A stretch of DNA of 64,000 nt, taken from assembly GCA_963565915.1 (NCBI GenBank), contig OY751489.1, forward strand, positions 2,232,001 through 2,296,000. The letters are read 5' to 3'. A model generated the notes under the pieces. It searched no databases. It was not told the DNA's origin and worked only from the letters and a program-made list of their open reading frames with translations. This DNA comes from Entoloma clypeatum (Eukaryota > Basidiomycota > Agaricomycetes > Agaricales > Entolomataceae). How positions within the stretch are numbered: position 1 is the stretch's first letter; each line of letters opens with the position of its first letter. Below are positions 5,691 to 62,110 of this stretch, in pieces. A program made the position numbers and the translations under genes.

Positions 5691-6283
5691 ACGGAGGAGG
5701 ACAGACTTGAGTCCATGTCGTCAACTCCGAAGTGCGGAATGGCTTCAACGGTACAATTCATACCCGGTCCGTTTAGAGAGAACTTTCTACTGTAAGGGCG
5801 ACCTTACGATCCAACAACTCTGAAGTGCTCTGAAGCAACTCCGATGTCGGACGACTTGCAAGGGAAATCCAAAGTTAAATTAGACTCTACAAAGTACAAT
5901 ATGAGGCGTACCTTGCAAGGGAAATCCAAAGAGAAAGTTCTGAGGATTCCCTTGCAGGCTAGACAGCTATATAGACAATGAGAATTGGAAATGAGGAGAG
6001 GAATGTTGAAATATGACAAAGATCGGGAGTAGGGATGGGAACCGAATATGTAAATCGGAAGCGTGCATGTGGTGGTATAAATCATTGCTCTGACATGCAC
6101 TCCAATGTGGAGGACGGGTCGGAAGTGTTGGAGGTCGGAGGTGTTGAAGGATAGATGGAAACAAAAGGAAATGTAAAGTATAGTAATATAAATAATAGAT
6201 GTACCACAATGGTCGGAGGGTCGGAGGATGGGTCGGAGGTGTCAGAGGTGTCAGATTGAGGAAATCGGATGGTTGCCCTTACA
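5691..6283 (-). mobile_element. Diverged family C 5' LTR plus leader remnant
   Basis: The minus strand reads an LTR (6283-5791) and about 100 bp of leader ending in the same primer-site sequence (plus strand GAGAGAACTTTCTAC) seen next to the other C LTRs. Everything downstream of the leader is missing and LINE sequence follows. No target duplication could be found. This is an older and more diverged copy than C1. Confidence 0.75.
5791..6283 (-). repeat. C-type LTR (493 bp, diverged)
   Basis: Same termini as the other C LTRs (TGTAAGGGCGACC ... GGTTGCCCTTACA) and the duplicated CTTGCAAGGGA motif, but a different central part and many substitutions. A TATATA sequence occurs near 5969. Confidence 0.88.
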
Positions 6284-6550
6284 AGTTGAGGCTGTTGAGC
6301 ACCAGTGGGGGCCGTTGGGGACAAGAGAGGGCTGTTGGGCTCGAGTGGTGGGCGTTGGGCATGGGTTGAAGCCGTTGGGCACGAGTTGGGACCGTTGGGC
6401 AAGAAAGAGGGCCGTTGGGCATGAGAGAGGTCTGTTGGGCATGAGAGAGGTCCTTTGGGCATGAGAAAGGGCTGTTGGACATGAGTGAGGGCCGTTGGAT
6501 GTGAGTTGAGACCGTTGGGCGTGAGAGAGGGCCGTTGGGCATGAGAGGGC
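6284..6550. repeat. 20-bp minisatellite (GTTGGGCATGAGAGAGG type)
   Basis: About a dozen degenerate head-to-tail units of about 20 bp with core GTTGGGC, starting at the LTR edge. The same unit forms arrays near 15600-16300 (opposite strand) and 61900-62110. Long open frames across the array come from the stop-free repeat and are not genes. Confidence 0.85.
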
Positions 6551-15125: not shown

Positions 15126-15599
15126 TCTCCCTAATGAATGAACCAAATTTGAAAAATGAAGGTGCTGGGAGGTCCCCTGAACGAGGAGAATCCATACAAT
15201 GATTCAATAGCATATATATATTACAGGTAGTTTAAAGTGGTTGTGGAAAGAAAATACTGATTTTTGTATTTGAGGGAACTCATGATGCACTGTTTATCAT
15301 GATTTACAGTGTGTTTTGTGTATCATTTTGCAGTACAGACTTTCTACCATACATATCTCATGTATCTAATTGTTTAAATACTTACTATTAGCTTCTAAGT
15401 ATCTCTACATAGGTTTAGAACTATTTTTAGGACTTCCAGTGCCACAGATTGGGCATTGACGGCGTGATTTTCAACAACGCGAATCACTCAGCATTCATGC
15501 CAAGGACTCTCGGCAATTGCTGAAAGTCAACCCATAAATCTGACCTCGAGCAAAATCTTCCCACACACTTTTTATTCCCCCACCTCCACTCCACCTGGC
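15126..15599. other. Intergenic, no gene seen
   Basis: AT-rich sequence with no recognisable coding region. It leads into the minisatellite. Confidence 0.5.
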
Positions 15600-16300
15600 T
15601 CCACTTCTGCCCAATGGCCACCACCGCTGCCCGATGGCCGCCCCTCGTGCCCAACGGCCCTCTTTAATGCCCAACGGCCTCCCTTTGCACCCAACACCGC
15701 CCCTTTGCACCCAACACCACCCCTTCATGCCCAATGCCCCCCTCATGTGCCCAACGGCCCCCTCTAATGCCCAACGGCCTCCCTGCATGCCCAACAGCCT
15801 CCCTTCATGCCCAACGGACCCTTCACATGCCCAATGGCCACCCATCATGCCCAACGGCCCCCTCTACTGCCCAACGGCCTCCCTGCACACCCAACGGCCT
15901 CCCTGCGCACCCAACGGCCTCCCTGCGCACCCAACAGCCCCTCTTGTGCCCAACGGTGCCCTTTAACACCCAGCGCCCTCCCTTCATGCCAAATGGCCGC
16001 CCTTCGCACCCAAGGTCCCCCTCGTGTGCACAACGGCTGCCTCTCATACCCAACTGCCACAAGTCATGCCCAATGGCCCATACTAGCGCGCAATGGCCCT
16101 CTCTAATGCCCAACGGCACCTTCTCACACCCAACGCTCCCCACTCATGCGCAACGGCCCACTCTCACATCCAGCGGCCTCCTCTCACGTCCAGTGGCCTC
16201 CTCTCACGACCAACGGCCCCTCACTCATGCCCCACAGCCTCGACTCATGCCCAACGGCCCCCCCACTCACATCCAACGGCGTTGTCTCGCGCCCAACACA
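15600..16300. repeat. 20-bp minisatellite, reverse orientation (ATGCCCAACGGCC type)
   Basis: About 30 degenerate units with core GCCCAACGGCC, the reverse complement of the arrays at 6284-6550 and 61900-62110. Several overlapping open frames on both strands are translations of the repeat. Confidence 0.88.
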
Positions 16301-16509: not shown

Positions 16510-17427
16510 TGTCCTACAGGACGGTGTTGCACTTTCAGCTGAGATTGGTGATGCAACAGTATTAGAGTTAGTTGCACAACACTTTGCTAAGACAGGTAAC
16601 TATCCAACATCAAGCTATTTGCAGATGATATGATTGACTTCAGACATACATCACTATAACGACTTTCATACATATCACAGTGTCATGCAGCATGAGGATG
16701 AGCTTATTGCAACAGGTGGTAGCACAGTTGCATTGCGAGAGAAAGCTCGAGTTACGCTGCAGCCGATCAAGGACAAAACTTTCTGGCAAACTTTAGAAGC
16801 GTGTGATTTCTTTCAGTTTTAAAATTAAACCCACTGACTGTCATTTCTCAGCATCACGGAAATCCTCAAGCCACTTGCAATTGCCAACAATGTCACCCAA
16901 GCACCAAATCTTTGACTCAATCAAGTGTTGATCACCCTGGGGCATCTTTTCAGGATCTACAAGTTTGGGAAATTCAAGACTCACAGCAACAACAGAGAGG
17001 CAATTCAAAACAAGATTCTTGAGAGCCTCGAGAAGCGATGAAAAGCCGCTGATCAAGACATCTTCATTCTCGCCATCTTCTTTAACCCCTACATCCACCA
17101 TGATTTATTTTCGACCACTACCGACGAATTAACACACAATAATCTGTATGAAATGGCTCAGCAGGTCTACATGCGTGTTATGAAGCAGGACACGACAGAT
17201 ATCAAGTTTTGCACCGCTTTTCATGAATATTTTCACCAAGAAAGGGCCTTTTCAGACCAGGCTATGTTGCTTGATCAACATAAGAGTTGGTCGGAGCTAG
17301 AGGTGAGAGTTCATTTGATACTGCAGCTTTGACGGTCACTTACCTCCCCCACAATTATATCTAGCATGTCCCAATTAATATCATCAATATATGGAGAGGT
17401 TTAGGTAATTCTGAATTTGTTAGATTT
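16510..17427 (+). pseudogene. hAT transposase pseudogene, 5' part
   Basis: Translated pieces match the catalytic region of a fungal hAT transposase: LAIANNVTQAPNL, NQVLITLGHLF, KAADQDIFILAIFFNPYIH, then LTHNNLYEMAQQVYMRV and HKSWSELE. A 62-bp intron (17303-17364, GTGAGA...CTAG) follows. Exon sequence (INIINIWRGLGNSEFVRF) then reaches the insertion point of element B and resumes in frame at 24955. There are stops at NL*LNQV (TGA for expected CGA) and EKR*KAA (TGA for TGG). The upstream start is not recognisable. Confidence 0.75.
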
Positions 17428-17903
17428 TGTTAAGAACTGATCGACAAAACGTCGGAGCTACGTCGGACGCGTCGGAAGGTCGGAGCGCGTGCAACGTAGG
17501 GGCAAGGACTTGGCTTCAACTTGTGTGTTGCGCCCTCGCTAATACGTTGGTGTCCTTATTTCGGAGGATCGGAGGATCGGAGGTCGGAGGTCGGACTCAA
17601 GTTAAGAGTCGGAAAGAGGACGGGAGGTATGATGTCGAATCTAAGTTGATATTCAAACTGAAGCTAATACACGATTCTACATAAGTTTAAATACTATGTC
17701 GGAGGACGTGTGGCTTCGTCGGAGTCGGATAACGAGTGGCTGTCGGAGATTCTTAACATAAGTAAAATGGTCGGATGTAAGTAATGTACGTAGTAACGAG
17801 ATTCATAACAGTAAGTATGCATAATAAGTATTAGTCAAAATGTCGGAGGTGTCGGAGGTGTCGGGATTGGTCGGAAATCGTCGGAATGGATCGGAATGTA
17901 ACA
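17428..17903 (-). repeat. 3' LTR of element B (476 bp)
   Basis: Matches 24479-24954 almost base for base. By my count it carries about 22 CGG triplets on the plus strand, nearly all as TCGG and many as GTCGGAG repeats. This is far above the roughly 7 expected by chance for this length. Confidence 0.95.
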
Positions 17904-18069: not shown

Positions 18070-19027
18070 ATGTCGGCATCCGATTTTCAAAAGGAGATGG
18101 AGGCGCTGCAGGCTAAGCTCGCGGAGGTGGAGGCGAAAAAGCGAGCAGCGGAGGAGGAGGCTGCGAGGAAGGCTGAGGAGGAGCGGAGAGCGGAGGAAGA
18201 GAGGGCTGCGGAGGCGGCGCGGTTAGCGGAGGAGATGCGGGTAGCGGAGGAGATGCGTCGGGCGTCGGAGCTGGCAGCTCAGAAAAGGGCCGATGAAGTG
18301 GCCGCTGCGCAAGGCGCATCGAGCAAGGGGTCGGGGGAGCCGCAGGCGGAGAAGAAGAAGAAGACGACGAAGAAGAGGAAGGTGGAGGAAGTGTCGGCGA
18401 TGGTCGGAGAGGGGTCGGGAGTCGGGGTCGGGGTCGGCACCTGTGATAGGTGCATTGTGAAGGGCGTCGAATGCGAACGCGATGAGTAAGTCCCTCTTTG
18501 GTTCGTCTCTTCTGTTTTAACCTTGTGTTTTTAGGAATAAGTCGTCCTGCAAAGGATGTATCAAAGACAAGAAGAAGTGCGAGGTCGGAGCGTCGGAGGG
18601 GAAGTCGGAGGTGAAGCGCACGGTGAAGGTGAAGGGAAAAGGGAAAGCGACAGAGGTCGGAGGGTCGGAGTCGGAGGTGACGCTGTTGAGCGTCTTGAAG
18701 GAGATTTTGGTGGAGACGAGGCAGATCCGAAGACTGCTCTCAGCAGTTGAAGGAACTGTCAACATTGCATACGTGCCAGAGGAAGTGGAGGAATCGGAGT
18801 CGGAGTCGGAGGGATCGGGGAAGTCGGAGGTGAATGAGGAGATAGAGGAGTTGAGCCTGGAGCAGAGGCTGGTGAAGAAGATCAAGCAAGACATGTTGAA
18901 TCGGAAGAGGTTGGATATGCCGGAGCAGTCCGACATGGACATATCGGACGAGTCGGAGAAGGCGGAGTCGGAGGGGGAGTCAGACAAGGAGGAGGGTCCG
19001 TCCAACAAGAAACAACGTACTAAGTAG
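18070..19027 (+). CDS. Antisense accessory gene of element B: coiled-coil Zn2Cys6-type protein (2 exons, 302 aa)
   Basis: Encoded opposite to gag-pol. Exon 1 is 18070-18485, a 49-bp intron (GTAAGT...TTTTAG) is 18486-18534, and exon 2 is 18535-19027; spliced length is 909 nt including the stop. Residues 3-80 are a charged Ala/Glu/Arg coiled coil (AEVEAKKRAAEEEAARKAEE). A basic stretch (EKKKKTTKKRKVEE) looks like a nuclear signal. A cysteine block then fits CX2CX6CX8CX2CX6C exactly (CDRCIVKGVEC ... CKGCIKDKKKC), the Gal4-type fungal DNA-binding cluster. The C-terminal half is acidic, activator-like, ending in a basic NKKQRTK. Its stop lies 28 bp from the pol stop, tail to tail. A precise intron inside the cluster and an uninterrupted frame argue for a working gene. 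DNA binding is inferred from the motif. Confidence 0.85.
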
Positions 19028-19055: not shown

Positions 19056-22000
19056 TCAGAGCGATGTGAGCGGACCCGGTTTGTTGGGATAAGCGGAGTG
19101 AAAGTCGGAGACAAGCTCGGGGGCGTTTTCCAATTCATTGGCTGGTAGCCAAGAGAATTCTTCATCAGTGTTTTCATATCCTAACCAACGGACGAAATAT
19201 AGTAGCTTGCAGCTACGTCGTCGGTCGATCTTTGAGTCAACTATTTCAGCGATCTCGTACTCAAGTTCTCCGTCAATGTCAATCGGAGGAGGCGGAGGTT
19301 GGGTCCGATTCGGAATGGTGTTCGGAGTTACGGGTTCAAGCATGGAGACGTGGTAGACGGGGTGAACACCGCGGAATGTGTCGGGGAGTCGGAGGGTAAA
19401 GGAGTGTGTGCCGGGTTGTGCAATGATCTCGTATGGTCCCAAGTACTTTTCTGAGAGTTTCTTGGATGGGCGTGTTGTGCGGAAGAACTGTGCTTTGACG
19501 AAAACCTGCTGTCCGACAGAAAATGTCGGAGGTGCGATCCGATTATTGTCGGAGGACTTCTGGTAGCGTCGTTGGGCGTTGGAGATGGTGGCTTTCAGTT
19601 CTTGGTGAAGTTCGTCTAAGTCGGTCACAAAGGATCGGGCTTGTAAGGGCGACCTTACGATCCAAGACTCAAACTCAGATACTTGCAAGGGAGATCCGAA
19701 GATTAGATTGAGCAGTCTGATAAGTAATACAACACACACCTTGCAAGGGAGATCCGAAGAGAAAGTTCTAAGGATTCCCCTGCAAGCTAGCGAGATAAAT
19801 AGTAAAATGAGATATGAAATAAAAGATAAAACGAGACATAGGAATGATGAGTAATGGTCGGGAGTAGGGATGGGGGATGAATGGAAACGAGATGAATGAT
19901 AGTACCTGCGATCCGACGTGCGGAGGAGCGGAGGGGCGCGGAGTCGTCGGATGTGGAGAGGTGCAGAGAGGTGAATAAGATATCAGAGGCAACAGATACG
20001 ATCGGAGGGCGTCGGAGGGCGTCGGAGAGCGTCGGAGATGGTGGAAATGAACGGAAAGGGAAAGTGCAAAGTGGTTGCCCTTACAGGGCTCGGGAAGAGG
20101 CGAGGTCTCGTTCCGGGTGAACAGTAATGTTCGGATGGTAACCTTTGTTAGCAAAGAAGGGAGATATGCCAGTGGTAGCACTAGGTGCGTTGTTGTACGC
20201 GAACTCCGCAATCGGAAGGAGAGCGGACCAGTTGTCCTGTTGGTAGTTGCAGAATATCCGCAAGTACTGTTCGAGGGTCTGGTTAGTGCGTTCGGTTTGG
20301 CCATCGCCTTCGGGGTGGTAACCGGAGGTGAAGTGGAGGGTCATGTTTAGAGCCTTTCCGAGAGATCGGAAGAATCGGGAGACGAATTCGGGGCCGCGGT
20401 CGGAGGTGATATGTTCGGGGACGCCGTGTTTAGAGAAGACATGCAATACGAAGAGTACGGCAAGGTCTTCGGAGGTGCAGTGAATTGTTGTCGGAATGAA
20501 AATACTTTGTTTCGTTAATCGGTCAACGATAACGAGGATTGAATCAAAGTTGTCGGAGGTCGGAAGGGTCTCGATGAAATCCATTGAGATAGAATTCCAA
20601 GGACGTTCGGGGATCGGAAGCTGTTTGAGTAGGCCGTAAGGCTTGTGTCTTTGTGGCTTCGATCGCATGCAAGTGGTACATGACTTGCAATAGTGTTTAA
20701 CGAAATCTCGTATTCCGGGCCAGGTATAATCACGCTGAATGAGACTGAGTGTCTTGTTCTGACCTGGGTGTCCAGCAAGCATATGATCGTGCTTGTGCTG
20801 TAGGACTCGGAGTCGGAGGTCGTCGGAGTCGGGAACGTATATCCGATCGTCATGTCGGAGGAAACCATCGGGGTCGAGAGACCAGCGGGGTTTAGGATTT
20901 TTAGAAAGAGTGTCGTAAAGAGTGTCGGAAGGGAGTGCTGTGAGTATGTCGTGGTGAAGCTTTTCTGTGTCCATGATAATGGTTGCACGGAGGACGGGCT
21001 CAAGGAGTTGAGTCGCGCGAACTGAAGCGGAGAGCTGTTCTTGCGAAAAGACTGGTCGGAGGTTGGTCGGATTGATGTCGACGTAGTCGCTATTTCCCCC
21101 TTTAGGATAGACATCCCAACGTCTAGTTAGAGAGTCAGGTTTAGTTCCCAATCGGCCGGGGCAGAATCGGATGACGAGGTTGAACTGAGAAAGGTATTCC
21201 GACCATCGGACTTGTCGGCGTGAAAGAACTTTGGTGGTGGCAAAATACTCGAGATTTTTGTGGTCGGTAACGACGTCAATCGGAGTACCGGAGCCTTCGA
21301 GGTAATGGCGCCAAATTTTAAACGCTTCGTAGATGGCAAGAAGTTCCTTATCGTGGGTGTCATAGTTTACTTCGGGGGCCGTGAAGGTGCGGGAATGGAA
21401 TGCGACGGGGTGGACTTCATTGTCGGAGGTGACTATCGACAGAATAGCCGCTAGGGCATAGTCGGATGCGTCGGTTTCGACAATTATCGGAGAGTCGGGA
21501 ATCCAGTGTGTCAGGATCGGAGCGGTGGTAAATGCCTTTTTCAGGTCATTAAAAGCGGTTCGAGCGTCGTCGGAGAACAGCCAAGTGGCATGTTTCCTGG
21601 TTAAACGAGTGAGTGGAATAGTGATGTTGGAATAGAATGGAATGAAACGTCGGTAAAAGTTTGCAAAACCTAAAAAGGACTGGACGTCCTTCACTCTGCG
21701 CGGTTCAGGCCAATCCTGAATAATCTTGACTTTCGCTTCCGACATTTTGAGTCCGTCGGGAGAAAGGATAAATCCAAGATATTCTACAGTTTCGGCAGAG
21801 AAGTCGCACTTGTCGGCGCGGGCGTAAAGACCATGTTGTCGGAGTCGTCGGAGGACTTCTCGGACATGTTTTTTGTGTTCCTCGGGGTTGTCGGAGTAGA
21901 TCAGGATGTCGTCGAGGTAAACGGTAACACAGTTGTCCAGAAGGTCGGAGAAGATGTCGTTCATAAAACGTTGAAAGGCTGCAGGTGCGTTAGACAATCC

Positions 22001-23209
22001 GAATGGCATGACTAACCATTCAAATGATCCATAGCGAGTGCGGAATGCAGTTTTCCATTCGTCACCTTCAGCGATGCGGACTAGGTGGTATGCATGTCGG
22101 AGGTCTATGGTGGTATAAACGCGTGCTTTTCCGGCAGTGGCTAAGAGGTCGGAGATGAGCGGAAGTGGGTATCGGTCCTTCTTCGTGATTTTGTTCAGGC
22201 CTCGGTAGTCGACGCATAGTCGGAGTGATCCATCTTTCTTTCGGACGAAGAGGATCGGAGCGCCGTGAGGTGAACTAGAAGGTTTGATGAAACCGATATT
22301 GAGGTGCTCATCGATGAAGTCTCGGAGGGATCCAAGTTCGGATTGCGAGAGTGAGTACATCAGACCAATCGGAGGGGAAGTACCTTCCTCCAAATTGATT
22401 TTGAGGTCGTACGGTCGGTGGGGTGCAAGGGTGTCGGCTTTTTTCTTACTGAATACATCAGCAAAATCGTGGTATTCCTCGGGTATGCCAGAGAGGTCGG
22501 GAGCGTCGTCGGAGACAGACGCGGAATTGGCGGAGATGTCGGAGAGGTGAACACAGAAAGCGTATGCCCCAGGAGCTTTACATGCATGGAGATATGCGGC
22601 TGCATTGACCATGGTAATCTGTGGCGGGTCGGAGGTGTTCGGAGTGAGCGGATCGGAGGTGCCCATTGGAGAGGGCGGACACTGCAGAGGTGGCGGAGCT
22701 GCCTCAGCAGTCGACGTCGGAGTCGGACTCGGAGTGTCGGGTAACGTAGAACGGAATAAGATACTGCCCAATACCCAGTCAATCAACGGATTGTAGCGGG
22801 TGAGCCAGTTGTGTCCTAGAACCAAATTACAAGACGAATCGAGGGTTGTCACGTAAAATGCGACGGTCAGAAGTTCACCGGAAGGAAATCGGAGAGGAAG
22901 ATCGATAGATTGTGTGATATACGTATTTGAAGAACCGTCAAAAAGTTTCAAAACCATAGGTGAAGGAATCGGAGTCGGAGATAAGTTTAAAGAAGAAATA
23001 AATCTGGTATCTGCGAAGCAATGTGTAGAACCAGAATCAATAAGAGTCTTTATCGGAAGAGAATCGGAAAAGGTCGGAGATATCAAATCAATACATAGAG
23101 AGTTCGGATTTGAGAGAGCGGACGCATTGAGTCGGAGGGTTTCCAAAGGTGCACGAAAGGAGTCAACGCAATCCCCAGTACGTGCTGGAATCTGAGGACT
23201 GCTTACTAT
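19056..23209 (-). pseudogene. Element B Pol polyprotein, split by a solo LTR
   Basis: The frame is open from the gag overlap at 23209 to the stop at 19056, apart from the inserted LTR at 19642-20085. Domains in order: aspartic protease (LIDSGSTHCF), RT (VDYRGLNKITKKDRYPLP; YLDDILIY), RNase H (VETDASDYALAAILS), zinc domain (AGHPGQNKTLSLIQRDY ... CTTCMRSK), integrase core (SISMDFIE; TSDRGPEFVS; DGQTERTNQ), GPY/F (EKYLGPYEI) and chromodomain (ELEYEIAEIVDSK; YFVRWLGYENTDEEFSWLP). The insertion separates ASSRA from RSFVTDL and the frame closes when LTR and one GGGCT copy are removed. Otherwise the protein looks intact. Expression probably needs a -1 frameshift. Confidence 0.94.
19642..20085 (-). 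repeat. Solo LTR of family C nested in element B (444 bp)
   Basis: Ends TGTAAGGGCGACC and GGTTGCCCTTACA, flanked by GGGCT at 19637-19641 and 20086-20090. It is almost identical to the C1 LTR. A lone LTR with a perfect duplication means the internal part was lost by LTR-LTR recombination. Confidence 0.96.
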
Positions 23210-23215
23210 TTTTTT
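23206..23215 (-). promoter_or_regulatory. Candidate -1 frameshift site (A AAA AAA TAG) of element B
   Basis: In the gag frame the sense strand reads TCA AAA AAA TAG. The pol frame is -1 relative to gag and is open from this point (ATA GTA AGC ...). Seven A's in phase A_AAA_AAA directly before the gag stop fit a canonical slippery heptamer. I could not judge any downstream stimulatory structure. Confidence 0.65.
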
Positions 23216-24432
23216 GACTCGGTCGTCTTCTCCGATTTGTCCTCAGCTTGGGCCGCGCGGGCTTTTGCTTTGGCGTTAGAAGACGATTTCTTCGAGCAGT
23301 CGGAAGCCCGATGACCAACGTTGCCGCAAAACATGCATAAATTATTGTCAAATCGTCGTTGGCGTTCTTGGGGAGTTAATTTCCCATCTTTGCCAAGTTT
23401 GTCGGAGAGGGCGGATTTCGGAGAGGTGGATGACGATTTTTGTTGTTGTTGCGAGTTGGGTTTAGACGATGAGGAGTTGTTGTTGGAGGATGATGAAGCG
23501 GGGGTCTGTTTTTTGTCGGATTTGTCGGATTTGTCGGATTTCGGAGTAGATTTGTCGGAGGAGCGCGATTTCTCGCGTTGACGTTCCCAGTAGCGAGCAT
23601 CAATGTTATGGGCCATTACTTTCAACTCGGCGAGAGTTTTTGGTTTGGGAAAAGTCCCCAAAACGTCCTTGATGCGTTCCGCTAAACCGGTATAGTACCG
23701 ATATCGGAGCGCGCCATCATCCCACTGCGTGCGAGCGGAAAGACGTTTGAAGTCCACGTTGTAACGTAGGATCTTCTGATTGTCGCGCATCCGAAGGTGA
23801 TCCAGGCTATCCTCTGCTTCTCCGGTCGGATCGATAGGTCCGAATTCGGATCGGAGGATGTGCACAAAGGCGGACCAGTCGTCCAACCAGACAGAGTCGT
23901 CGTCGGACTCTCCCAAGAGGGTGGGCTCAAACCATTCGAGCGCGGTTCCTCGGAGGTACGACAGAGCGAAACTGACTTTGTTATCATCGTCGTCAAAAGC
24001 GGGGTTGTTTCGGAAATATAGCGTGCATTGTGCGAGGAAACTGGTGAGTTTCCGAGAGTCGGAACCGTCAAAAGTGTCGGGTTCCTTCGATTTCTTTTTC
24101 GGAGTTTTCGGAGTCTCTCTTCATCGGAGCTCCTGCGTCATAAGCATAATTGCTTCGGCGAGGTTTGGAGTTTGCTCGCGACGGAAAGGATTGTTATCGT
24201 CAAAAGGAGAGGTCGGCGATTTAAAAGGACGGAATTCTTCAGGAATCGGAGGTCCTTGTGTCTGAGGTGTTCGGAGACGAGGTGTCGGAGATATGGGGTC
24301 AGGTTTGGGTGCAGATTCTTCTGCGGGAATATCTTGGAACGTATGTAGAAATGTCGCCCTGGTGTCCTGCAGGTTTGAAGCTTCCGCTGCGGCTGCTGCT
24401 GCGCGGGAGTTCTGTGTGTTGCGGGCTGCCAT
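23206..24432 (-). pseudogene. Element B Gag, interrupted by one TGA
   Basis: ATG at 24432 (MAARNTQNSRAAAAAAEAS). After 103 codons a TGA (24121-24123) follows QELR. The frame then continues through the Retrotrans_gag core (TFDGSDSRKLTSFLAQC; VSFALSYLRGTALEWFEP; MRDNQKILRYNVDFKRL), a Ser/Lys/Asn-rich linker and one CCHC zinc knuckle (CMFCGNVGHRASDC), ending TTESKK-stop at 23206. TGA replaces an expected CGA. Gag packages the RNA in virus-like particles. Confidence 0.9.
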
Positions 24433-24478: not shown

Positions 24479-24954
24479 TGTTAAGAACTGATCGACAAAA
24501 CGTCGGAGCTACGTCGGACGCGTCGGAAGGTCGGAAGGTCGGAGCGCGTGCAACGTAGGGGCAAGGACTTGGCTTCAACTTGTGTGTTGCGCCCTCGCTA
24601 ATACGTTGGTGTCCTTATTTCGGAGGATCGGAGGTCGGAGGTCGGACTCAAGTTAAGAGTCGGAAAGAGGACGGGAGGTATGATGTCGAATCTAAGTTGA
24701 TATTCAAACTGAAGCTAATACACGATTCTACATAAGTTTAAATACTATGTCGGAGGACGTGTGGCTTCGTCGGAGTCGGATAACGAGTGGCTGTCGGAGA
24801 TTCTTAACATAAGTAAAATGGTCGGATGTAAGTAATGTACGTAGTAACGAGATTCATAACAGTAAGTATGCATAATAAGTATTAGTCAAAATGTCGGAGG
24901 TGTCGGAGGTGTCGGGATTGGTCGGAAATCGTCGGAATGGATCGGAATGTAACA
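24479..24954 (-). repeat. 5' LTR of element B (476 bp)
   Basis: Partner of 17428-17903, flanked on the right by the GATTT duplication. It contains the TATTTAAA box and predicted transcript start used for self-priming. Confidence 0.95.
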
Positions 24955-24959
24955 GATTT

Positions 24960-50880: not shown

Positions 50881-53100
50881 TCTTGAGCACTTTTGCTCCT
50901 GGTCCTTTGTAAATCCCAGATGGTTTACTATCTCTGCCAACTCTCACGTCAGCTACGCCTTCCCTGCCCTTAATGATCTGGGCCTTCGGCCTTTCAACTA
51001 TCAGCAATGCGACCACCCTCAACATTGACTATGATTTGGTCCTTGATTGCTGGGCACCAGTCAATGACTCATCACATCGCCACAACACTTTTGAGTCAAA
51101 AAGGGTACTTTGCACTTCTTTCAACAGGACGCCCCTCCACTGCACGGCAGGTGGGTGGCCCCCTCACATCATACATCCTCCTTTAGGTGCTATTCTAGTA
51201 ATGAATGTGCCACCAGCTTGGTCTCAAGCTTGTATCTGTGGACGGACATTCTCAGTACCACAGGCATACACATATCACAGATGCAGTTGCCCGAAGACTA
51301 AGAAATGACTTTCTTCTGCCTTGGAAAAGGCCAAGGAGGTCTTTCAGGTGAAAAAACACTGGATGTGGCACGGCAAGAAGCTATGGAGACTTCAGGTCAT
51401 CTTGCCGCTGAGCTGCCTTTGAATGAGGTGAATTGCCTAGCCACCACGTCTAGCCACTGTCATTGCTTACCGAGAGATTGTGTTCAGGCCACCGAGACAA
51501 CCGTCAACTACGATGATCTCCATCAACCTATAGCAGAACAGAGGACGTGCCGAGAACATCGCCAATTGCCAAAGTGCTATCAGGATATAGCACCTGAACC
51601 TCCAGCTGCACTTCCCCCTGCATCTTTGCAGGCCCTGTCAGATTGTGCGCAAGCGGAGCCAACAACAGCATCTCAGCCCCCATCTCAGCAATTCCCAGCG
51701 CCTGTGTCTCTGGTCAGAAGGATCATCAAATCTGTGCGCAATGGATTTGGCCTTTTCCGACAATACCACGCAACTTGCTTCCCTGATCATGATCCTAGCG
51801 ACAATATCACACCCAACAACTTGATAGACACATCCTCAGACCTGTCTTCCACCCCTCTGGCCCACAGCTACCGCCCATATCCAAACCAATCAACATTTCT
51901 GCTAGGAGAATGGTATTGGAATGATGGTGAAAAGAAATCGCAGTCCAGCTTCCAGAATCTCCTCAAGATAGTTGGACATCCAGACTTTTGCCCGGAGGAT
52001 GTTGCAGGCAAGAATTGGCGACTTATTGACACCCAGCTTAGCGGAGAGCGCTGCGAGGAGGACGATGGCTGGGAGGATGAACAGGATAGCAGACCCAGAG
52101 GGTGGATCCAAACGCCAATTAAAATTAACGTTCCCTTCCAAAAACAAATGCTGCACCCGGGTCAAAAAGAGTTCAATGCGGGCATTCTTCATCATCGCAA
52201 GTTGACCTCCATGATCAGGGAGAAAATCACCCGACCCTCTGTGCACCCCCACCTCCATTTCGAACCTTACAAATTATTTTGGCAACCAAATCAGCCAGTC
52301 CAGGTCCATGGCGAGCTGTACACATCAGAGGCATTCATCAAGGCTCATAGCGAGCTCCAAGATTCTCCCCAAGAACCGGGATGCGACCTTCCAAGGGTTG
52401 TGATCGGTCTCATGTTCGCCTCTGATGGCACCCACCTCACGTCTTTCAGCAACGCTAAATTGTGGCCGTTTATCTCATGATAGGAAATGAGTCAAAAGAT
52501 TGAAGGTCTAAACCTTCCTGTCATGCATTCGAACATGTTGCTTATCTGGAAACGGTGCATGAAACCACATATGCCGATGTCATGCGGACCTCAATCCTGT
52601 TGAATGATAGCTCCCTGATGCCTTTGCAACCTTCGCCGCGGAGAATATCGGCAAGGGACCCAATTCCACGTTTATGGGGCATTGCCATTGAGAAATGTAC
52701 CATGCTCAATGGTCAATCATCCTCAACGATGAATTTCTGGAAGCATACTGGCATGGAATGGTCATCAAATGTTGTGATGGCGTTTGGCACCATTTTTACC
52801 CACACATATTCACATATTCCGCAGATTACAAGGAGAAGTGAGTTCTCACCACATCGTCAGAATACTAAAAACTCATATATTGTTAAGTAGGTGAAACGTC
52901 GGAGCTTCGTCGGAGTCCATCGGAGGTCGGACATAGGACTGAGACCGGAGCAGAACTCCGGAAATGCGGAGGAACGACGAAGGGGAGGGACGTGGCTTCA
53001 ACGTATGTGTTGCACCGCCGTTTGTTGGATAAGGTGTCCCAATTTCAGGAGGTCGGAGGTGCGGAGGGTCGGAGGTGCGGAGGTCGGAGGTGGTTGGAAC

Positions 53101-53320
53101 ATGGTGAAGATCAAGGGCAAGGGGAAGGCTGTAGAAATGGGATCGGAGGATGTGTCGGAAGACACAGTTCTATGTGTACTATATGATTTTCTTTAGTTAG
53201 ATGAAGTTGGAGGAGTCAGAAAAAGCGGAGAGGTCGGAGATAGATTCAAGTGAGAAAGTGTTGAATAAGCCAGAGGAGGCGGTTGCAGAGAGAACAAAAC
53301 CTTTTGGTTCTAATAGTTGA
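53101..53320 (+). pseudogene. Remnant of the B-type antisense accessory gene in element D
   Basis: The plus strand reads VKIKGKGKAVEMGSEDVSED then an acidic stretch (EESEKAERSEIDSSEKV), like VKVKGKGKATEVGGSESEV and the acidic tail of the 18070-19027 protein. Position and strand relative to the element match. The coiled coil and cysteine cluster are gone and stops intervene. Confidence 0.55.
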
Positions 53321-54173
53321 CAAATGTCAAAAACATCGAAGATGACTCGGAAGCGGAGCAGACATGTCGGAGGTCAAGGAGGCAATGGCTGAAAATGCGG
53401 AGTTGTAATGGATGAATGGAGGAAACTGGTCAACAGTGTCAGGATGGACTCCATTCCGACTGGAGGAGATGTCCAAAAGGTCGGAAATGGTGATTGGATG
53501 AGGCCAATGTCGGAGGTGATGAAGGGAGTAAGTGGTGCTTTCACTGGGTGACTATTTCCCCCTTAGAATAGACGTCCCAACGTCTATCTTAAGACACAAG
53601 AGAAAAATGACAGAAAACACCGGAGATGTGCGGAGGTGGTATGAAAAACATCGGAGGTGTGCGGAGATAATCAGAGGTGGTATGAAAAACATCGGAGGTG
53701 GTATGAAAAACATCGGAGTAGATCTGATGTCAGAGATGGAGATGTCGGAGATGGAGGTGTCGGAGGTGTCCAGAAAATTAGATATCGGAGGTGATCAGAG
53801 GTCGGAGTGGAGTGTTTGCAAAAGTGGCATCAATGCCAACTTAAGCAATGAGACGTCGGGGCTTGCACTCTTCAGAAAATGGATGGAAAAGGTACTGGCC
53901 CAATACCCATACAATGCAAAGATTGTGAAGTGGGTGAGCTAGTGGAATCCTAGAACCAGATAAATTCGAGCCAAGCGAGGGTTCAAAAAAAATGACAGAG
54001 TGTCCACAGAGGGACGAAAACGGAGGTCGGAGGTGATCAACCACAAATGAATGGGTCAATCAAATGAGTGGGCAATGAAGACCCAAAAAATGCGGAGATG
54101 TCGGAGATGCCGGATGGTGTTTTGGAGTGCCATGGCTAGCAGGAATCCAAAAACGGTTTGAGTTCGAATATAC

Positions 54174-54382
54174 TGTTAAGTAGGTGAAATGTCGGAGCTT
54201 CGTCGGAGTCCGTCGGAGGTCGGAGGTAGGACTGAGACCGGAGCAGAACTCCGGAAATGCGGAGGTAACAGATGTCCGGAATATCGGAATTGATCAGAGA
54301 TTGTTGGAGCGGAATTGATCGGAATTGATCGGAATTGATCGGAGATGATCGGAGGTTGTTGGAGCCAGAATGGTATATAACA
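54174..54382 (-). repeat. Right LTR (5') of element D, 209 bp
   Basis: TGTTAAGTAGG to TATATAACA. The first 95 bp match 52881-52975; the rest is short GGAATTGATC repeats. Adjacent internal sequence GTTCGAATATAC resembles the B primer-site region. Confidence 0.7.
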
Positions 54383-55460
54383 TATATCTTAGAATACTAC
54401 TAGCCAGCATCCGCAATCTTGGTTGCTGCCCTTGTCCTCAGTGTCTCATACCATTGGATCGTGTTTCTAATACGGGAATGCGTCGGGACATGGCACAGCG
54501 CCTGTCCCTTGCCCGTATTGACGGTGTGAAGCGTTGTAGTCATGTCAAGGCTGCGCGAGAGGTCATATATGGGAGCAACTGCTCGGTTGACAGTGCGGGT
54601 GTGGAGAGGCTTCTAAAAGAGGATTCTCTGGTTCCAACAGCAGTGAGTGTGCCTTTTTGTTATGCGGCTGAGGTTAACGACCCACTGTTTCAGAATGCAT
54701 TCTCGGATAAGCTATCGCCACTCGACTTCAATATGTTCGACATGCTAGTTGTAGACCTAATGCATGAAGTTGAGCTTGGCATCTGGAAGGCAGTATTCAT
54801 CCATCTGCTACGCATTCTAGACTGCGGGAATGAAAACCTGAAATATGAACTGGATCAGCGGTACACATTATTAGTACAACCTTTGGGATCTAACACTAAG
54901 CTTCAACTTCATTAGCTTCAGAGAGATTCCGCCTTTTGGGATTGATGGTGTAAGGAGGACAACGATGAACCGGTTGGAACTAAAGAAGATGACGGCACAT
55001 GATTAGGAGGATATGTTGCAAGTAAGTAGGGTTGATGGCTAGATTTAAAATGAACATAACTCACGTCTAAATGCTCATCCAGTGCGCCATCCTGGCCTTT
55101 GATGGCCTCCTTCCTGAACCCCACAATACACGTATTCTCCAGCTTCTGTTCGATCTGGCTCACTGGCATGGTCTTGCCAAGCTATGGATGCACACAGACC
55201 TCACTCTAGGACTTTTGTCACAAGGCACTACATCTCTGGGCGACAGACTTCGCGGATTCCAGAAGGAGACATGTGTAGCATTTCCAACACGGGAATTGGA
55301 ATGCGAGAAGGTTGCCCGAACACCACCTATGATGTGCGGCGTGGGACCGATATTGTCAAGCTGGGGGCGTCTCGTTGCAATGTCATGTTACTCGCAGATT
55401 ACGCAGATGATTCCAACCCTTCAAATTTACATTGCTTTTTGTACGCACGAATACTAGGGG

Positions 55461-55745: not shown

Positions 55746-55750
55746 CTAGC

Positions 55751-56166
55751 TGTAAGGGCGACCTTACAATCCAAGACTCAAACTCAGATACTTGCAAGGG
55801 AGATCCGAAGTTTAGATTGAGCAGTCTAATAAGTAATACAACACATACCTTGCAAGGAAGATCCGAAGAGAAAGTTCTAAGGATTCCCCTGCAAGCTAGC
55901 TGCGATAAATAGTAAAATGAGATATGAAATAAGAGATAAAACGAGACGCATGAATGATGAGCAATGATCGGGAGTAGCGATGAAGGATGAATGGAAACAA
56001 GATGAATGATAGTACCTGTGATCCGACGTGCGGAGTAGTGGATGGGGGCGGAGTCGTCGGATGCGGAGAGGCGGATAAGATGTCGGAGACAGCGGATACA
56101 ATCAGAGGACGTCGGAGATGGTGGAATAGAAAGGAAAGGAAGAAAGTGAAAGTGGTTGCCCTTACA
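55751..56166 (-). repeat. 3' LTR of C2 (416 bp)
   Basis: Differs from the 5' LTR by an 18-bp gap and ten substitutions, nine of them CG against TG or CA. Confidence 0.96.
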
Positions 56167-56180
56167 TCACCCCCCCTTCA
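56167..56180 (-). promoter_or_regulatory. Polypurine tract of C2
   Basis: Sense TGAAGGGGGGGTGA directly before the 3' LTR. Confidence 0.8.
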
Positions 56181-56189
56181 AGGCACGGC

Positions 56190-59100
56190 GTCTCGACGTG
56201 TCAGGCGAAACGAGTCGAATATCGCGGCGGCGATCCGCCGCGGAGCTCCCGGATGACGTCGGTAGAAGTCGCGGACTAGGCGTGGAGCGTGGACATTGTC
56301 TTCTGCTTCCCAGGAATTCTCTTCATAGCCATATCCCTTCCATTTGACCAAGAATTGAAGCTTGCCTCAATGCAGTCGGCTGTCCAAGAGGTTTTCAACA
56401 TCGTACTCTAATTCTTCTCCGACTACTGTCGGAGGCGGAGGAGAGCGGACTTGGCGTCGGAAAGGGTTGTTGGGAACTAGTGAAAGTTTGACGACATGGA
56501 ATACTGGGTGAACGCGGGACATGGAAGGGGGAAGGCGAAGTTCATAGGCATGTGTTCTGACAGGTCGGACCACTGGGAAAGGGCCTACGTATCGATGTGC
56601 AAGCTTTTTTGTGGGTCGGGTGGTTTTGAGGTCTGATGAGTCTAAAAAGACCTTGTCCCCCGGGCAGAATGTCGGAGTGGTGCTCCGATGCTGGTTGTAG
56701 TATCGCGCCATGTCATCTTTTGCCTTTGTCAGTGCTGTGCGAGCCTCCTCTAGAGCGGACTTCATCCGCTGGCTGAAATCCGCTACCGCCTCGATCTCCG
56801 TCCGCTTCTCGCGAGGTTCGAATCCCATGCGCGGATGGCAGCCGGTGTCAATGTAGAATGGAGTTTGATGTGTCGATGCATGAACATGGTTGTTGTATGC
56901 AAATTCAGCCATCGGAAGCCATTCGTCCCAATCGTCTTGACGTTCATTGACGAATAGGCGAAGGTATTGTTCTAATCCTTGATTGACCCGCTCCGTCTGT
57001 CCGTCCGACTGCGGATGGTAGGCTGTCGAGGCAGCAACCTTAATGTTAAGCAGCCTGTATAGTTCGTGCGTGAACTTGGCGACAAACTGTGGTCCTCGGT
57101 CAGAGACAATGGCCTCTGGGAGTCCGTGGAGTTTCCAGACATTTTGAACATAGGAGCATGCAGTCCCGAGTGCGGAGATGTCGGAGTGCATCGGGATGAA
57201 GTGTCCCCGCTTCCCTACTGAGTCCACTACGGCCATGATAGCGTCGTAGCCATGGGCTTCTGGTAGTTCAGTAATGAAGTCAACACTGGTTACTTGCCAC
57301 CGCTCCGTGGGGACCGGTAGCGGATTGAGCTCTCCGGAGGGCAGAGTGCGTCAGACCTTGGTGCGGAGGCAAGGGTCGCATGTCTTGCAATATTGACCTA
57401 TTAAACGGGACATGTGCAGCCACCAGTAATTGCGCAACACCAGTTCCAAGGTTTTCCACCGTCCAGGATGTCCGGCCACCGGAGTGCCACGGCGCTGTGT
57501 GAGGATCCGACGACGCAGTTGGGGATTGTTAGGAACATAGATACGATCCCTGAAGTAGAGCAAACCTTCCGCTTGCCTCCACTCCGCACTACAGATGGAC
57601 CCTGCTCCGACGGTTGGAAGGGATTTGACAACCTCCGCCACACTATCTTCCAGTAACCCCTCTCGGATTCCCTGTCGGACCTGGCGGAGGACGTCGCATT
57701 CTTCCCCTTGAACGGTTACCCCCCGCATTGCTCGCACTGCAAACAATTCTGGTCGCAGAAGGATGATGTTTTCGTTGTCCCATGATCCGTCTCCGTGGTC
57801 CGCTCGTCGGGACCAAGCGTCGGACTTGCCCATTGACTTGCCAGGTTGATGGTGCATTTTGAAATCGAAATGAGCGAGGTATAAGGACCATCTAGCCTGT
57901 CGTCGATTTAGTTTTTGAGCTGTCATGAAGTACTCAAGATTTTTGTGGTCCGTCCAAATCTCCACTGTCTTCTCCGCTCCTTCAAGGAAGTGCCTCCACT
58001 CCTCTAATGCGCGGACCACTGCCAACATCTCCTTGTCATAGATCTCGTAGTTGCGTTCCACCGGACTAAGGCTTTTGGAATAGAATGCGACAGGGTGCCA
58101 CTTACCGTCCTCTGTTGGTTGGGACAGTACTGCTCCGGTTGCAAAGTCCGAGCTATCCGCTTCTATCCGCCACTTCTTTCCATGATCAGCTAAGACCAGG
58201 ATCGGAGCGGATGTAATCCTCCGCTTCAACTCTGCAAATGCGGACACTTCTCCCTCCCTCCAAGACCAGAGGTGCCCTTTCTTCGTGAGCTCGAAAAGAG
58301 GGCACGCGATGTCCGAAAACCCTTCAATAAAATGGCGATAGAAGTTAGTGAACCCCAGAAAGGACTGTACTTCTCGGACGTTTGTCGGAGCAGGCCACTC
58401 CGCGACCCCCGCTACTTTCACCGGATCCATCTCTACGCGTCCTTGTTCAATAATAAGGCCTAGGTATTCAATGCGTGTTTGTTCAAACTCGCATTTCTCT
58501 GGTTTTAGATAGAGTTTGTGTTCGCGAAGTCGTTCCAGTACAATCCGTGTGACTCTTCGATGCTCTGCAAGGGTCTCCGTGAAGATGAGTATGTCGTCGA
58601 GGTAAACACAGACTACACCTTCAGTGATAAGGTCCTGAAAGATCTCGTTCATCATAGTCTGGAATGTGGATGGACTATTAGTGAGGCCGAAGAACATCAC
58701 CAATGGTTCATAGAGTCCGCGATTGGTCCGAAAAGTGGCCTTCCACTCGTCTCCGGGCTTTATCCGTACATTGTTGTAACCCCAGCGGATGTCGAGTTTG
58801 GTGAAGTATTGAGCGCGTTGAAGTTTATTGATCAGTTCGGATATGAGCGGAAGCGGATACTTGTTTTTGATAGTTTTGGAATTGAGTGACCGGTAGTCTT
58901 GTACAAGACGAAGGGAGCCATCCTTTTTCTTGATATAGAACACCGGAGATGCCATCGGAGACTTGGAAGGGCGGATCCGACCAGTTGCAAGGTTTTCCTC
59001 CAAAAACGCGTCGAGTTCCTTCCGTTCGTTCGGAGCAAGCGGATATACCTTACACCCCGCCGGAGAGGCGTCCGGAACAAGTTCAATGGCGTGGTCCCAA

Positions 59101-60245
59101 GTCCGCTCTTCCGGTAAGGTGTCAAAAGAGGTCTTTGAGAATATGCCTTCGAAGTCAAACAAGTGGTCTGGTACAGAGTCGCGGAAAGATTTAGGTTTTT
59201 GGTTACTGAGGAAGGCCTCCGATAGATGTTGCGAGATATTGGATGAAGCATGGATGAACTCCGCCTCCGCAGGTACTGTTCCGACAAAAAGGCGGTCTCC
59301 CTCCTCAAACTCATCCTCTTCCTCATCGTTATCCGCTAACTCCTCTGCTTCCTCTTCTTCTGTGACATCCTCCACCCATGGGCCACGTGGAGCCTCCTCC
59401 TCTAGACCGGACGTCGGAGTGGAACCCATCTGACAGGCTCAGATGCGGACTTGTTCAAACTTCTGCTCCTTCCGCTCTTGGGCTGCCTCCTGGTGGCATG
59501 TCCGACATCGTGCAGGACACCGGCTCATCTTCACTTCCCCTGATGTCCAATCTACCTCGGGGTTGTGTTCCTTGAGCCAAGTGAAGCCTAACACGATTTC
59601 TTGTTTTCCCAAACTTGTGACTGCAAGCTGGGTCCGTTCTGAGTGATCCCGGTAGCGGAGCACTACATCCAACACCTCCGTTATTGCTCCGGCCTCGTTT
59701 GGAGTTCCGTCGATGTTGTATACCGGAATTGCGTGTTGTAGTTTTCGAGTAGAGAGTCAATGTTTCTCGACCAGAGTGCGTTCAATAAACGACCCTGTTG
59801 CCCCGCTGTCGAGTAAGGCCTTTTGTGATAGTGTGTCTTTGGTGTCGGTAGTTTCAAGAACTATGTCTAGTTCAATAGAATTGTCGGGGTGAGCAGAGGC
59901 GAGGACATATTGTTTTGGAAGCCAACGCTCCCATTTAGAGAGGCGAAGGTGGATGGGATTTGCGGAGTTGGGTGCGACTATGGAATCGTTTGCAGGCTTA
60001 GAGATGGAGGGTATAGGATCATATTGTTCCATAAATAAGGCAGCATAACGATTTTTAGCAGACAACGAGGGCGCACTGTTCACTCGCTGTGGGGAGGAAA
60101 ATCCTCCTGTCCTCCCTCCGACTCCGCAGACTCCGTGGGCGGAACGGAGTTGCCTTCCGCTGCGTCCTTGACCACGAGTTGTTCCATAACAAACTCGTCC
60201 TGCTCCTCCATTATCATGAAGCGAACATCGAAGCGAAGGGGGCAT
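56190..60245 (-). pseudogene. Family C Pol polyprotein with four in-frame TGA codons
   Basis: One continuous frame, in the -1 phase to gag. Protease (ALLDSGATGSFIE), TGA at 59757-59759, then VLGFTWLKEHNPEVDW, TGA at 59439-59441, RT (YIKKKDGSLRLVQDYRSLN; YLDDILIF), RNase H (EADSSDFATGAVLS), zinc domain (AGHPGRWKTLELVL; CKTCDPCLR), TGA at 57351-57353, integrase core (TSVDFITEL; VSDRGPQFVAKF; DGQTERVNQ), GPY/F (HRYVGPFPVV), TGA at 56367-56369, then a chromodomain (LQFLVKWKGYGYEENSWEAE) ending near 56190. In each case restoring CGA (Arg) fits the family pattern. Chromodomain plus RNase H order marks a chromovirus. Confidence 0.93.
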
Positions 60246-61234
60246 TCACGACTAAAGTGACCCGTTTTGTTACATCTGAAGCATGCATTGGCATTCTTGC
60301 CTTTGACATGTGAAGTATCAATGTCCATTGCATTGGGGTCCCTTGTCAGCGGAGCGGATGCGGATGCAAGCGGAGCTGTGCGTGGAGTGAATGGAATGTA
60401 GGGGCGAGGGAATACTGAGGTGCCAGGTACTCTTGGTCCGACAACATTGCAGAAGGCGGAGGTACGGGTCGGAGCAGTGGCTTTGAAGGCTTTGTTGGCA
60501 ATCCTATTGTCGTCATTGACTCGTGCTGCAGAGTACCACTCATCGGGGTTGTCATCCGCAGGTCGTCCGTGGGTCAGGGTGGCAATCTCGTTCTGAATGT
60601 CGGAACGGAGACCATGGCGGAATTTGAGTACTATATTGGTATCCTCCTGATAGCCTGCTTTGTCAATGTAGTCTTTGAACTCGTCAATATAGGTCTCGAC
60701 ATCCCGTTGACCTTGATAATAGGATTCTCCTTCGAGGATCAGTCTCGCGTCCTGTTCCTCATTCTTCGGAGTGAACTCCGTTGTAAAGACGGCGCGGAAG
60801 TCCACCCAAGTCCGATAAGGCGGAGCACCGGTCCTCCGCTCTTGTCGGATAATGCGATCCGCAAAGCGTGCTGCGCGTCCACTCTTCATGAAAGATAAGG
60901 CCCAATAAATTTTAGCGTGGTCGTCTGCGAACTGTTCCGGAGCCAGCCCCATAAACAATTCACAGGAGTTTAGAAAGGTCCAGCCATTTGCGCGCGATCC
61001 GTCGAAGTCTGACGGATTGGCGGGTTTTGCTCGACGCACGCCCGGATTGGCCGGAGCGAGCGGAGCAGGTGGAGGTGCGGGTGCGGGAGCAGGTGGGATA
61101 GGTGGCGGAGCTGGGGCAGGAATTGCGTTGAAGGCGAGGAGGAGTTGGTCAAGTTGAGTCGAGATATCAGCGAGAGTTTGACGTTGTTCCTGGAACTTGT
61201 GCTCGAGCTGTTCAAGGCGATTGGGGTCGTCCAT
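60080..61234 (-). CDS. Family C Gag (about 384 aa)
   Basis: ATG at 61234 (MDDPNRLEQLEHKF). A coiled-coil start, then a Pro/Ala-rich linker, the Retrotrans_gag core (GWTFLNSCELFMGLAPEQFA; YYQGQRDVETYIDEFKDYID; IVLKFRHGLRSDIQNEIATL), one CCHC knuckle (CFRCNKTGHFSRECP) and an acidic end (EGGQEDFPPHSE). The frame is intact. Its first 135 codons are duplicated in C1 (3184-3589). Confidence 0.93.
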   Translation of the reverse strand: MDDPNRLEQLEHKFQEQRQTLADISTQLDQLLLAFNAIPAPAPPPIPPAPAPAPPPAPLAPANPGVRRAKPANPSDFDGSRANGWTFLNSCELFMGLAPEQFADDHAKIYWALSFMKSGRAARFADRIIRQERRTGAPPYRTWVDFRAVFTTEFTPKNEEQDARLILEGESYYQGQRDVETYIDEFKDYIDKAGYQEDTNIVLKFRHGLRSDIQNEIATLTHGRPADDNPDEWYSAARVNDDNRIANKAFKATAPTRTSAFCNVVGPRVPGTSVFPRPYIPFTPRTAPLASASAPLTRDPNAMDIDTSHVKGKNANACFRCNKTGHFSRECPLRFDVRFMIMEEQDEFVMEQLVVKDAAEGNSVPPTESAESEGGQEDFPPHSE

Positions 61235-61388
61235 TACTATGCGCAGAGCAGAATCACCAGTTACGGAGAGGTAGTTACTGTAGAAGAACTGGAAGGGGTG
61301 TGAGATGTATTGGAGTCGGACACAGACGAAGCTGCTCCGAAGCGCAGAATCGTGACAACGATGCAATCGGACCCGGTCCAATTAGAAG

Positions 61389-61398
61389 AGAACTTTCT
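61389..61398 (-). promoter_or_regulatory. Self-priming primer-binding site of family C
   Basis: Plus-strand AGAACTTTCT, 2 nt from the LTR edge. The sense primer site AGAAAGTTCT complements AGAACTTTCT at 61528-61519 in the LTR, which starts 33 nt from a TATTTAT box (61561-61555). Confidence 0.7.
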
Positions 61399-61400
61399 AC

Positions 61401-61839: not shown

Positions 61840-62110
61840 CCCACTCTTCTCCTCCAGGTGCGAGTGGGGCGTGATGTGTGGCCATTCAGGGCGGTGGGCG
61901 CGTGTGGGGGCCGGTGGGCATGAGAGGTGCCCGTTGGGGTGAGTGGCGGCCGTTGGGCATGTGTGGCGGCCGTTGGGCGCGTGTGGGGGCCGGTGGGCAT
62001 GTGGGGGGGCGGTTGGGCGCATGTGGGGACCGTTGGGCATGAGAGGTGCCCGTTGGATGGCGAGAGACGGCTGTTGGGCGGTGGTGGGGGCGAGACATTA
62101 CCGTTGAGAG
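61840..62110. repeat. 20-bp minisatellite (GTTGGGCATG type)
   Basis: Degenerate units such as GCCGTTGGGCATGTGTGGCG, starting a few bases after the CTAGC duplication. Same family as 6284-6550 and, inverted, 15600-16300. Confidence 0.82.

Follow-up and report, generated by a model that had tools for sequence, protein, structure and literature searches.

Plant gypsy elements can carry, between pol and the 3' LTR, antisense genes to which no function has yet been assigned (PMC7264820, PMC11963269). These plant aORF-3R genes (Grande gene23, RIRE2, Retand TRP28) are, like the gene reported here, additional antisense ORFs of Ty3/gypsy elements. The present gene differs in that it resides in fungal chromodomain elements, encodes a Cys6 zinc-cluster-like protein, has an intron inside the cluster and is accompanied by an element-wide CGG motif; by term counts, the words zinc and intron are absent from the main text of both papers. 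In fungi, an additional antisense gene, brtn, was published for a Boty-like element of Botrytis whose gag-pol likewise ends in a chromodomain (Zhao et al., 2011, as cited in PMC7264820, PMC8365987 and PMC4227169). The first-pass annotation of our locus had known of no described fungal case with a Gal4-type cluster; brtn limits this to the cluster, of which the descriptions of brtn in these citing papers make no mention. A search of the open library found no zinc-cluster gene of such kind, which is weak evidence given that scope. The word antisense is absent from a survey of fungal LTR elements (PMC3248453), and one paper retrieved by "binuclear cluster" together with "retrotransposon" (PMC2644716) was discarded, as "binuclear cluster" is merely part of a reference title there.

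Three further systems are relevant to the function of such a gene. VANC21, encoded by an Arabidopsis VANDAL transposon, is described as recognising a short word that occurs at high density and in one orientation in its own transposon (PMC5735166), and the targets of VANC6 contain other words (PMC5735166, PMC10398659). CGG triplets are the usual target of Zn2Cys6 proteins in fungi; Pho7, one of these proteins, recognises a TCGGA-cored site that has only one CGG, perhaps as a monomer (PMC5559640). Fungal DNA transposons are reported to carry TET/JBP genes thought to oppose DNA methylation (PMC12730594); these resemble the present case in being genes on fungal mobile elements and differ in encoding an enzyme and in residing on DNA transposons.

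The window, a stretch of 64,000 nt of the Entoloma clypeatum genome, contains a chromodomain Ty3/gypsy retrotransposon on the minus strand (element B) with a gene in antisense between pol and the 3' LTR (Table 1). Comparison of its two LTRs (476 bp each) showed 0 mismatches and 2 gaps with a total of 16 nt. The window copy is not an intact element, because its pol is interrupted by a solo LTR, of which 300 nt are identical to a stretch at 3751 and which is ~60% like the LTRs of a gypsy element at 55.7-61.8 kb. When the pol of the window element was compared with a protein collection, 7956 of the 7960 scored candidates were pol relatives. Named relatives at 71-76% identity came from Agaricus, Leucocoprinus, Trametes and Pleurotus, and named ascomycete, smut and amphibian matches were at 46-55%; the closest matches (to 82%) were metagenome proteins. 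Elsewhere in the window, arrays with a 20-bp period were observed at 6270-6549, 15571-16200 and 61928-62067, and repeats built around MPNG and HPT could be read in the ORFs at 15.6-16.3 kb. Nothing was returned when the window was scanned for Rfam families and tRNAs.

Table 1. Features of element B and its antisense gene (positions in the window).
Feature	Position	Strand	Basis or remark
Target-site duplication GATTT	left 17423-17427, right 24955-24959		sequence reading
3' LTR of element B	17428-17903	-	also forms the upstream region of the antisense gene
Antisense gene, exon 1 (Ala/Glu/Arg/Lys-rich N-terminus, basic stretch, first Cys triad)	18070-18485	+	138 codons plus two bases; spliced-frame reading
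KKKKTTKKRK basic stretch, nuclear-signal-like	18352-18381	+	by eye
First triad C-x2-C-x6-C (CDRCIVKGVEC)	18442-18474	+	exon 1
Intron	18486-18534	+	49 nt, GTAAGT...TTTTTAG, phase 2
Antisense gene, exon 2 (second Cys triad, acidic tail, SNKKQRTK C-terminus, stop codon)	18535-19027	+	
Second triad C-x2-C-x6-C (CKGCIKDKKKC)	18548-18580	+	exon 2; more basic half
Glu/Ser/Asp-rich tail	18779-18997	+	by eye
pol C-terminus, Tf2-1-like SH3 and chromodomain	19056-19641	-	pol stop faces antisense stop
Solo LTR inserted in pol	19642-20080		~439 bp
pol: protease, RT, RNase H, integrase	20081-23146	-	domain search
gag part with zinc knuckle	23206-23916	-	domain search
5' LTR of element B	24479-24954	-	

The two-exon gene (18070-19027, plus strand) comprises 302 codons plus stop, and 28 bp separate its stop from that of pol. 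The 49-bp intron, the 302-codon spliced frame and the exact cysteine spacing noted in the first-pass annotation were all reproduced from the window sequence: the predicted protein contains CDRCIVKGVEC-ERDENKSS-CKGCIKDKKKC, i.e., C-x2-C-x6-C-x8-C-x2-C-x6-C. It was equally correct that only splicing completes the cluster, as the triads lie in separate exons and the unspliced frame runs past the first triad to end in a stop formed at the donor (GAG TAA). The coiled coil and the nuclear-signal-like stretches of that annotation are by-eye readings.

A search of the genome (60.08 Mb, 20 contigs) yielded at least 185 exon-level matches of the window protein, designated family 1. Family 2, first met beside locus L008, had 149 genomic matches, and family 3, detected next to pol copies sharing 74-75% identity with the query, had at least 159. 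At least three element families of this genome thus carry an antisense gene at this position. For family 3, 17 pol matches of its type occurred among the 150 scored out of 2307 candidates; among the matches listed, a family-3 antisense match adjoined pol on the opposite strand in 16 of these 17, and none lay beside the remaining one (C11:1112212). We examined 79 distinct gene loci (39 of family 1, 26 of family 2 and 14 of family 3), counting once both the window copy (L020) and L043, which L036 repeats; 50 of them were the best-scoring search matches and the rest were hand-picked, many for divergence. Splicing produced a six-cysteine cluster in 73 of the 79 (39, 21 and 13 in families 1-3). It was lost in six: L041 had a deletion, L042, L074 and L076 had a stop in the second triad, and no pair of triads was found in L067 and L077. 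The start and a C-terminal KKQ, KKA or KTA were both kept in 30/39, 18/21 and 8/13 loci, some of which had been fetched short. Of the cluster-bearing loci, 11 extended less than 300 bp past the gene. In the others, a pol C-terminus in opposite orientation adjoined the gene in 38/39, 18/18 and 5/5 distinct loci of families 1-3, the exception being L035 of family 1, which lacks a pol match. The antisense stop was mostly 28-75 bp from the end of pol, in a few cases 150-200 bp. The same ORF next to pol in sister elements and a retained cysteine block in other copies, whose absence the first-pass annotation had named as refuting its reading, were both found.

Sequence similarity between the families was uneven. 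Profile comparison (hhalign), whose values may be inflated by biased composition, linked families 1 and 2 with a probability of 95 (E 2.8e-8) and families 2 and 3 with a probability of 51 (E 1.5e-4) over a stretch spanning the cluster; the link between families 1 and 3 was weak (probability 6.5), and plain BLASTP aligned families 1 and 2 at 28% (E 9). Common descent is argued mainly from place, orientation, intron site and phase, cysteine order and the basic C-terminus (SNKKQRTK, SNKKQRK, PPAKKAKTQ).

The intron had phase 2 in all 73 cluster-bearing loci and the same site in the three families; counted from the first base of the first-Cys codon, the donor lay 44 nt downstream in families 1 and 3 and 47 nt downstream in family 2. 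Its length was 48 or 49 nt in family 1, 49, 50 or 51 nt in family 2 and 46, 49, 51, 56 or 64 nt in family 3, so that every residue modulo 3 is represented, with the exons in frame throughout. Because the intron finder required GT..AG ends (GTR..YAG for L061-L080) and preferred GTAAGT- or GTGAGT-like donors, the canonical ends are partly by construction; this applies less to the constant site and variable length. Selection was assessed by the NG86 method on the open spliced frames of 17 chosen copies (42 pairs). The dN/dS ratio was 0.18-0.41 in 40 pairs: 0.20-0.41 in 21/21 pairs of family 1, 0.24-0.40 in 5/6 of family 2 (the remaining pair, at 1.41, had a single synonymous change) and 0.18-0.36 in 14/15 of family 3 (the remaining pair at 0.59). 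The antisense protein is under purifying selection, and a chance ORF was rejected on the basis of dN/dS and the constant site and phase of the intron. The at least 185 genomic matches, the two further families, the constant intron site and the purifying selection are more than chance would give, and the antisense gene is almost certainly a conserved, element-encoded coding gene.

Gal4-class Zn2Cys6 clusters follow the spacing rule C-x2-C-x6-C-x5-12-C-x2-C-x6-8-C, and the antisense clusters fit it with x8 in family 1, x11 in family 2 and x10 in family 3. A Pfam scan of the whole window protein gave no Zn_clus match, and when the clusters of families 1 and 2 were scanned in isolation they reached 13.5 and 14.1 bits, short of the 21-bit cut-off, their best stretches being matched in crossed order. 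The Zn2Cys6-type label of the first-pass annotation holds for the spacing; membership of the Gal4 class is at most putative. Among 177,635 PDB sequences searched at E up to 10, five matches were obtained, four of them Gal4 or Ppr1: three Gal4 chains (E 1, 2.1 and 4.1), Ppr1 (7.5) and a ribosomal protein (3.7). The Gal4 alignment included all six cysteines in order, with a best E of 1 that is not significant. As this resemblance is suggestive rather than significant, we refer to the protein as zinc-cluster-like. In Gal4-class proteins, the basic residues between the second and third cysteines touch CGG. The antisense protein shares with Gal4, Ppr1 and Pho7 the Cys6 spacing and, in the words of its elements, a match to their CGG recognition core, but it lies below the Pfam cut-off and its second triad is the more basic one, the basic residues being, by eye, mainly there in all three families.

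Pfam Zn_clus itself was found at 29 places in a six-frame search of the genome. Two of these were inspected (L081 737-1531, L082 741-1421) and read as one recurring gene in a single frame, which has a Zn_clus domain and an acidic stretch (MQQVYDDDANPNLDIPSKARATAACAPC...) and scored nearly equally at four of the 29 places; one of the four lay beside a family-1 antisense gene fragment. It may be a further mobile gene with a zinc cluster.

No homologue was found in the protein collection, as searched with residues 90-302 of the window protein and residues 88-215 of a family-3 protein. The 7956 pol relatives in the same collection indicate that this was not for want of fungal data; the result is limited by the poor prediction of spliced genes in metagenomes and by the low complexity of the protein. 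Public viral contigs gave no match. Among public genome contigs, query A3 gave no match and query A4 led to two distant gypsy contigs, in which a cysteine scan showed no pair of triads; one of them, L092, ends soon after pol. Positions 1-4122 of L092 hold a fungal-looking gypsy pol frame in a soil bacterial MAG record (probably contamination).

What is new here, antisense gypsy genes being already known from plants and Botrytis, is that the elements with the antisense gene are filled with the words (T/G)CGGA(G), mainly on the strand of that gene and most densely in the LTR. CGG is the classical half-site of Gal4-class proteins. The top over-represented hexamers of the family-1 LTR were GTCGGA (16 forward, 0 reversed) and TCGGAG (11 and 0). 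TCGGA occurred 20 times on the plus strand of the 476-bp 3' LTR and 0 times reversed, against a mean of 1.6 and a maximum of 7 in 1000 shuffles. This corresponds to 42/kb in the LTR, compared with 16/kb internally, where 98 forward and 16 reversed occurrences were counted, and 1.1 and 0.5/kb on the two strands of host DNA, sampled as six 2.5-kb pieces (15 kb) at round coordinates. For families 2 and 3, an LTR-side stretch of a single copy was delimited by eye in each; CGGA was present there 21 and 29 times (shuffle means 3.3 and 7.3) and reversed 0 and 5 times. The base before CGGA was T at 20/20 sites of the family-1 LTR, 42% in family 2 and 51% in family 3.

The coding regions were compared with 1000 synonymous-codon shuffles in which both the protein and the codon usage were fixed. 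In element B, both TCCGA and CTCCG were over-represented in pol. TCCGA (sense-strand reading) ranked first of all 5-mers in the pol and gag of this element, with 53 occurrences vs. 15.6 expected in pol (0/1000; 20, 17 and 16 in the three frames) and 13 vs. 4.9 in gag (0/1000); the chromodomain part had 7 vs. 3.1 (5/1000), and the antisense gene itself had 14 TCGGAG vs. 7.1 (0/1000). CTCCG, TCCGA and TCCGC were among the top four 5-mers in the pol of families 2 and 3: the counts were 45 vs. 17.8, 34 vs. 17.3 and 42 vs. 16.7 in family 2, where CCGCT was the fourth, and 63 vs. 23.8, 41 vs. 21.5 and 33 vs. 14.7 in family 3. Reversed TCGGA was not enriched in the pols of families 1-3 (z -0.3 to 1.0). 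GCGGA in family 2 pol (7 vs. 1.8) and ACGGA in family 3 pol (13 vs. 4.5) were enriched in the sense orientation, so the strand bias is strong, not absolute.

In outward design these elements resemble VANC systems: they encode a protein of their own, contain a dense one-orientation motif and form related families with shifted motifs. The motif is also rare elsewhere, save in one gene-less gypsy family, where it occupies both strands. The VANC systems differ in being DNA transposons with a mainly non-coding motif, and binding and demethylation are reported for them (PMC5735166, PMC10398659), whereas the present system is known from its sequence and has pol and gag enriched at fixed codon usage. 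We consider that the antisense protein binds the CGGA(G) motif of its own element with a probability of roughly 45%.

Several other explanations of the motif have to be weighed against this reading. It is doubtful, though worth considering, that the accessory protein has another job and that a host protein, either an activator or part of the silencing machinery, reads the CGGA words. The Pfam Zn_clus scores below cut-off are compatible with such a host reader, as is the high-copy gypsy family at 55746-61834 (minus strand), which has a 1356-codon open frame in many of its genomic matches and no room for an antisense gene. Its internal part had 27 and 32 CGGAG on the two strands vs. 7.0 and 7.4 expected (5.2 and 6.1 per kb; the sum approaches the value of 14.7 in element B). 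At fixed codon usage, its frames were enriched in CGGAG, TCGGA and GCGGA; the motif is therefore not strictly tied to the gene in cis. It is possible that this family uses the zinc-cluster protein in trans, which would reconcile it with binding by the antisense protein, or that the word is read by a host protein. The dense, strongly strand-biased form of the motif, however, was seen only in the three gene-carrying families among the elements compared. The copia, Tc1 and gypsy2 frames of the same genome showed no comparable enrichment, and the gypsy2 LTR had 4 reversed GCGGA vs. 0.6 expected. TCCGA and CTCCG were not enriched in the two distant gypsy pols from soil contigs; L092 had 12 TCGGA in the other orientation vs. 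5.2. The top 5-mer of L092 at fixed codon usage was CACAG (18 vs. 4.5), and other elements may carry their own words. Within the window, the region 52500-54500 had 32 TCGGA vs. 1 reversed, and at 52875-54269 it contained a pair of ~100-bp repeats resembling the starts of family-3-type LTRs; this region is perhaps a non-autonomous derivative that retained the motif.

The peak of motif density in the LTR, the close spacing of CGGA (5-12 bp for 46/67 spacings in the three LTR stretches) and the activator-like acidic tail (by eye) would also suit a plain LTR transcription factor acting through the LTR arrays only, with the motif of the coding part due to another cause. We regard this as unlikely, as it leaves unexplained why pol and gag are enriched when protein and codon usage are kept fixed. 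Less probable still is a motif acting at the RNA level, in which Gag or the antisense protein would bind CUCCGA in the sense RNA and so serve its packaging, export or decay: the strong single-strand bias in families 1-3 agrees with this, but the DNA sites of VANC21 are likewise in one orientation, the close spacing and the CGG core are in keeping with recognition of DNA, and the gene-less family has both orientations. Finally, the gene might be a passenger, a recently captured host gene or a chance frame, with which the low-complexity composition and the negative homologue search of the protein collection would agree; the conserved place, intron and cysteines in three families and the dN/dS below 1 make this highly improbable. 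Of the two origins proposed in the first-pass annotation, the element-encoded gene is retained and the captured host gene set aside: a gene common to sister elements and two further families is not a private capture, and a host-gene passenger is disfavoured.

On the reading that the antisense protein binds its own motif, the gene would long have belonged to a chromodomain Ty3/gypsy lineage as an accessory gene. It would be transcribed against gag-pol from within or next to the 3' LTR and then spliced. Its product is predicted to be a nuclear, zinc-binding, zinc-cluster-like protein with a helical-looking N-terminus, the Cys6 cluster, an acidic tail and a basic C-terminus, which would bind CGGA(G) words throughout its own element, most densely in the LTRs, and thereby mark or activate copies of its own family. 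It could do so as an LTR-bound activator or, in a bolder version, as a sequence-specific anti-silencing factor opposing CpG methylation, an outcome that we consider rather doubtful. The full picture of a retroelement counterpart of VANC is held just as tentatively: an antisense zinc-cluster protein would coat the CGGA(G) words of the element and shield or reopen the family against CpG methylation, with the words maintained in gag and pol by synonymous choice, words and cluster diverging together (TCGGA in family 1, mixed with GCGGA in families 2 and 3) and the gene-less gypsy family riding in trans.

The decay of the copies bears on the silencing part of this proposal. A strong excess of CpG-to-TpG/CpA changes was observed among copies of the family 1 and 2 gene regions (L001-L060), with transitions per site at CpG vs. 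other C/G of 0.149 vs. 0.003, 2.454 vs. 0.180 and 0.410 vs. 0.056 in groups of 11, 19 and 18 copies, respectively. This CpG-biased decay suggests exposure of the elements to methylation; a TCG preference of decay, as in rusts, was not found in the copies compared. CpGs within the motif decayed about like other CpGs (0.258 vs. 0.291 in old copies of family 1, 0.067 vs. 0.043 in family 2 and 0.039 vs. 0.060 in family 3), leaving no trace of protection in the copies compared.

The antisense gene offers two testable handles, a cysteine cluster and a matching element-wide DNA word. If this pair works together, LTR retrotransposons would possess a self-recognition like that of the plant VANDAL transposons and their coding DNA would at the same time serve as a landing strip for a regulator that the element itself encodes.
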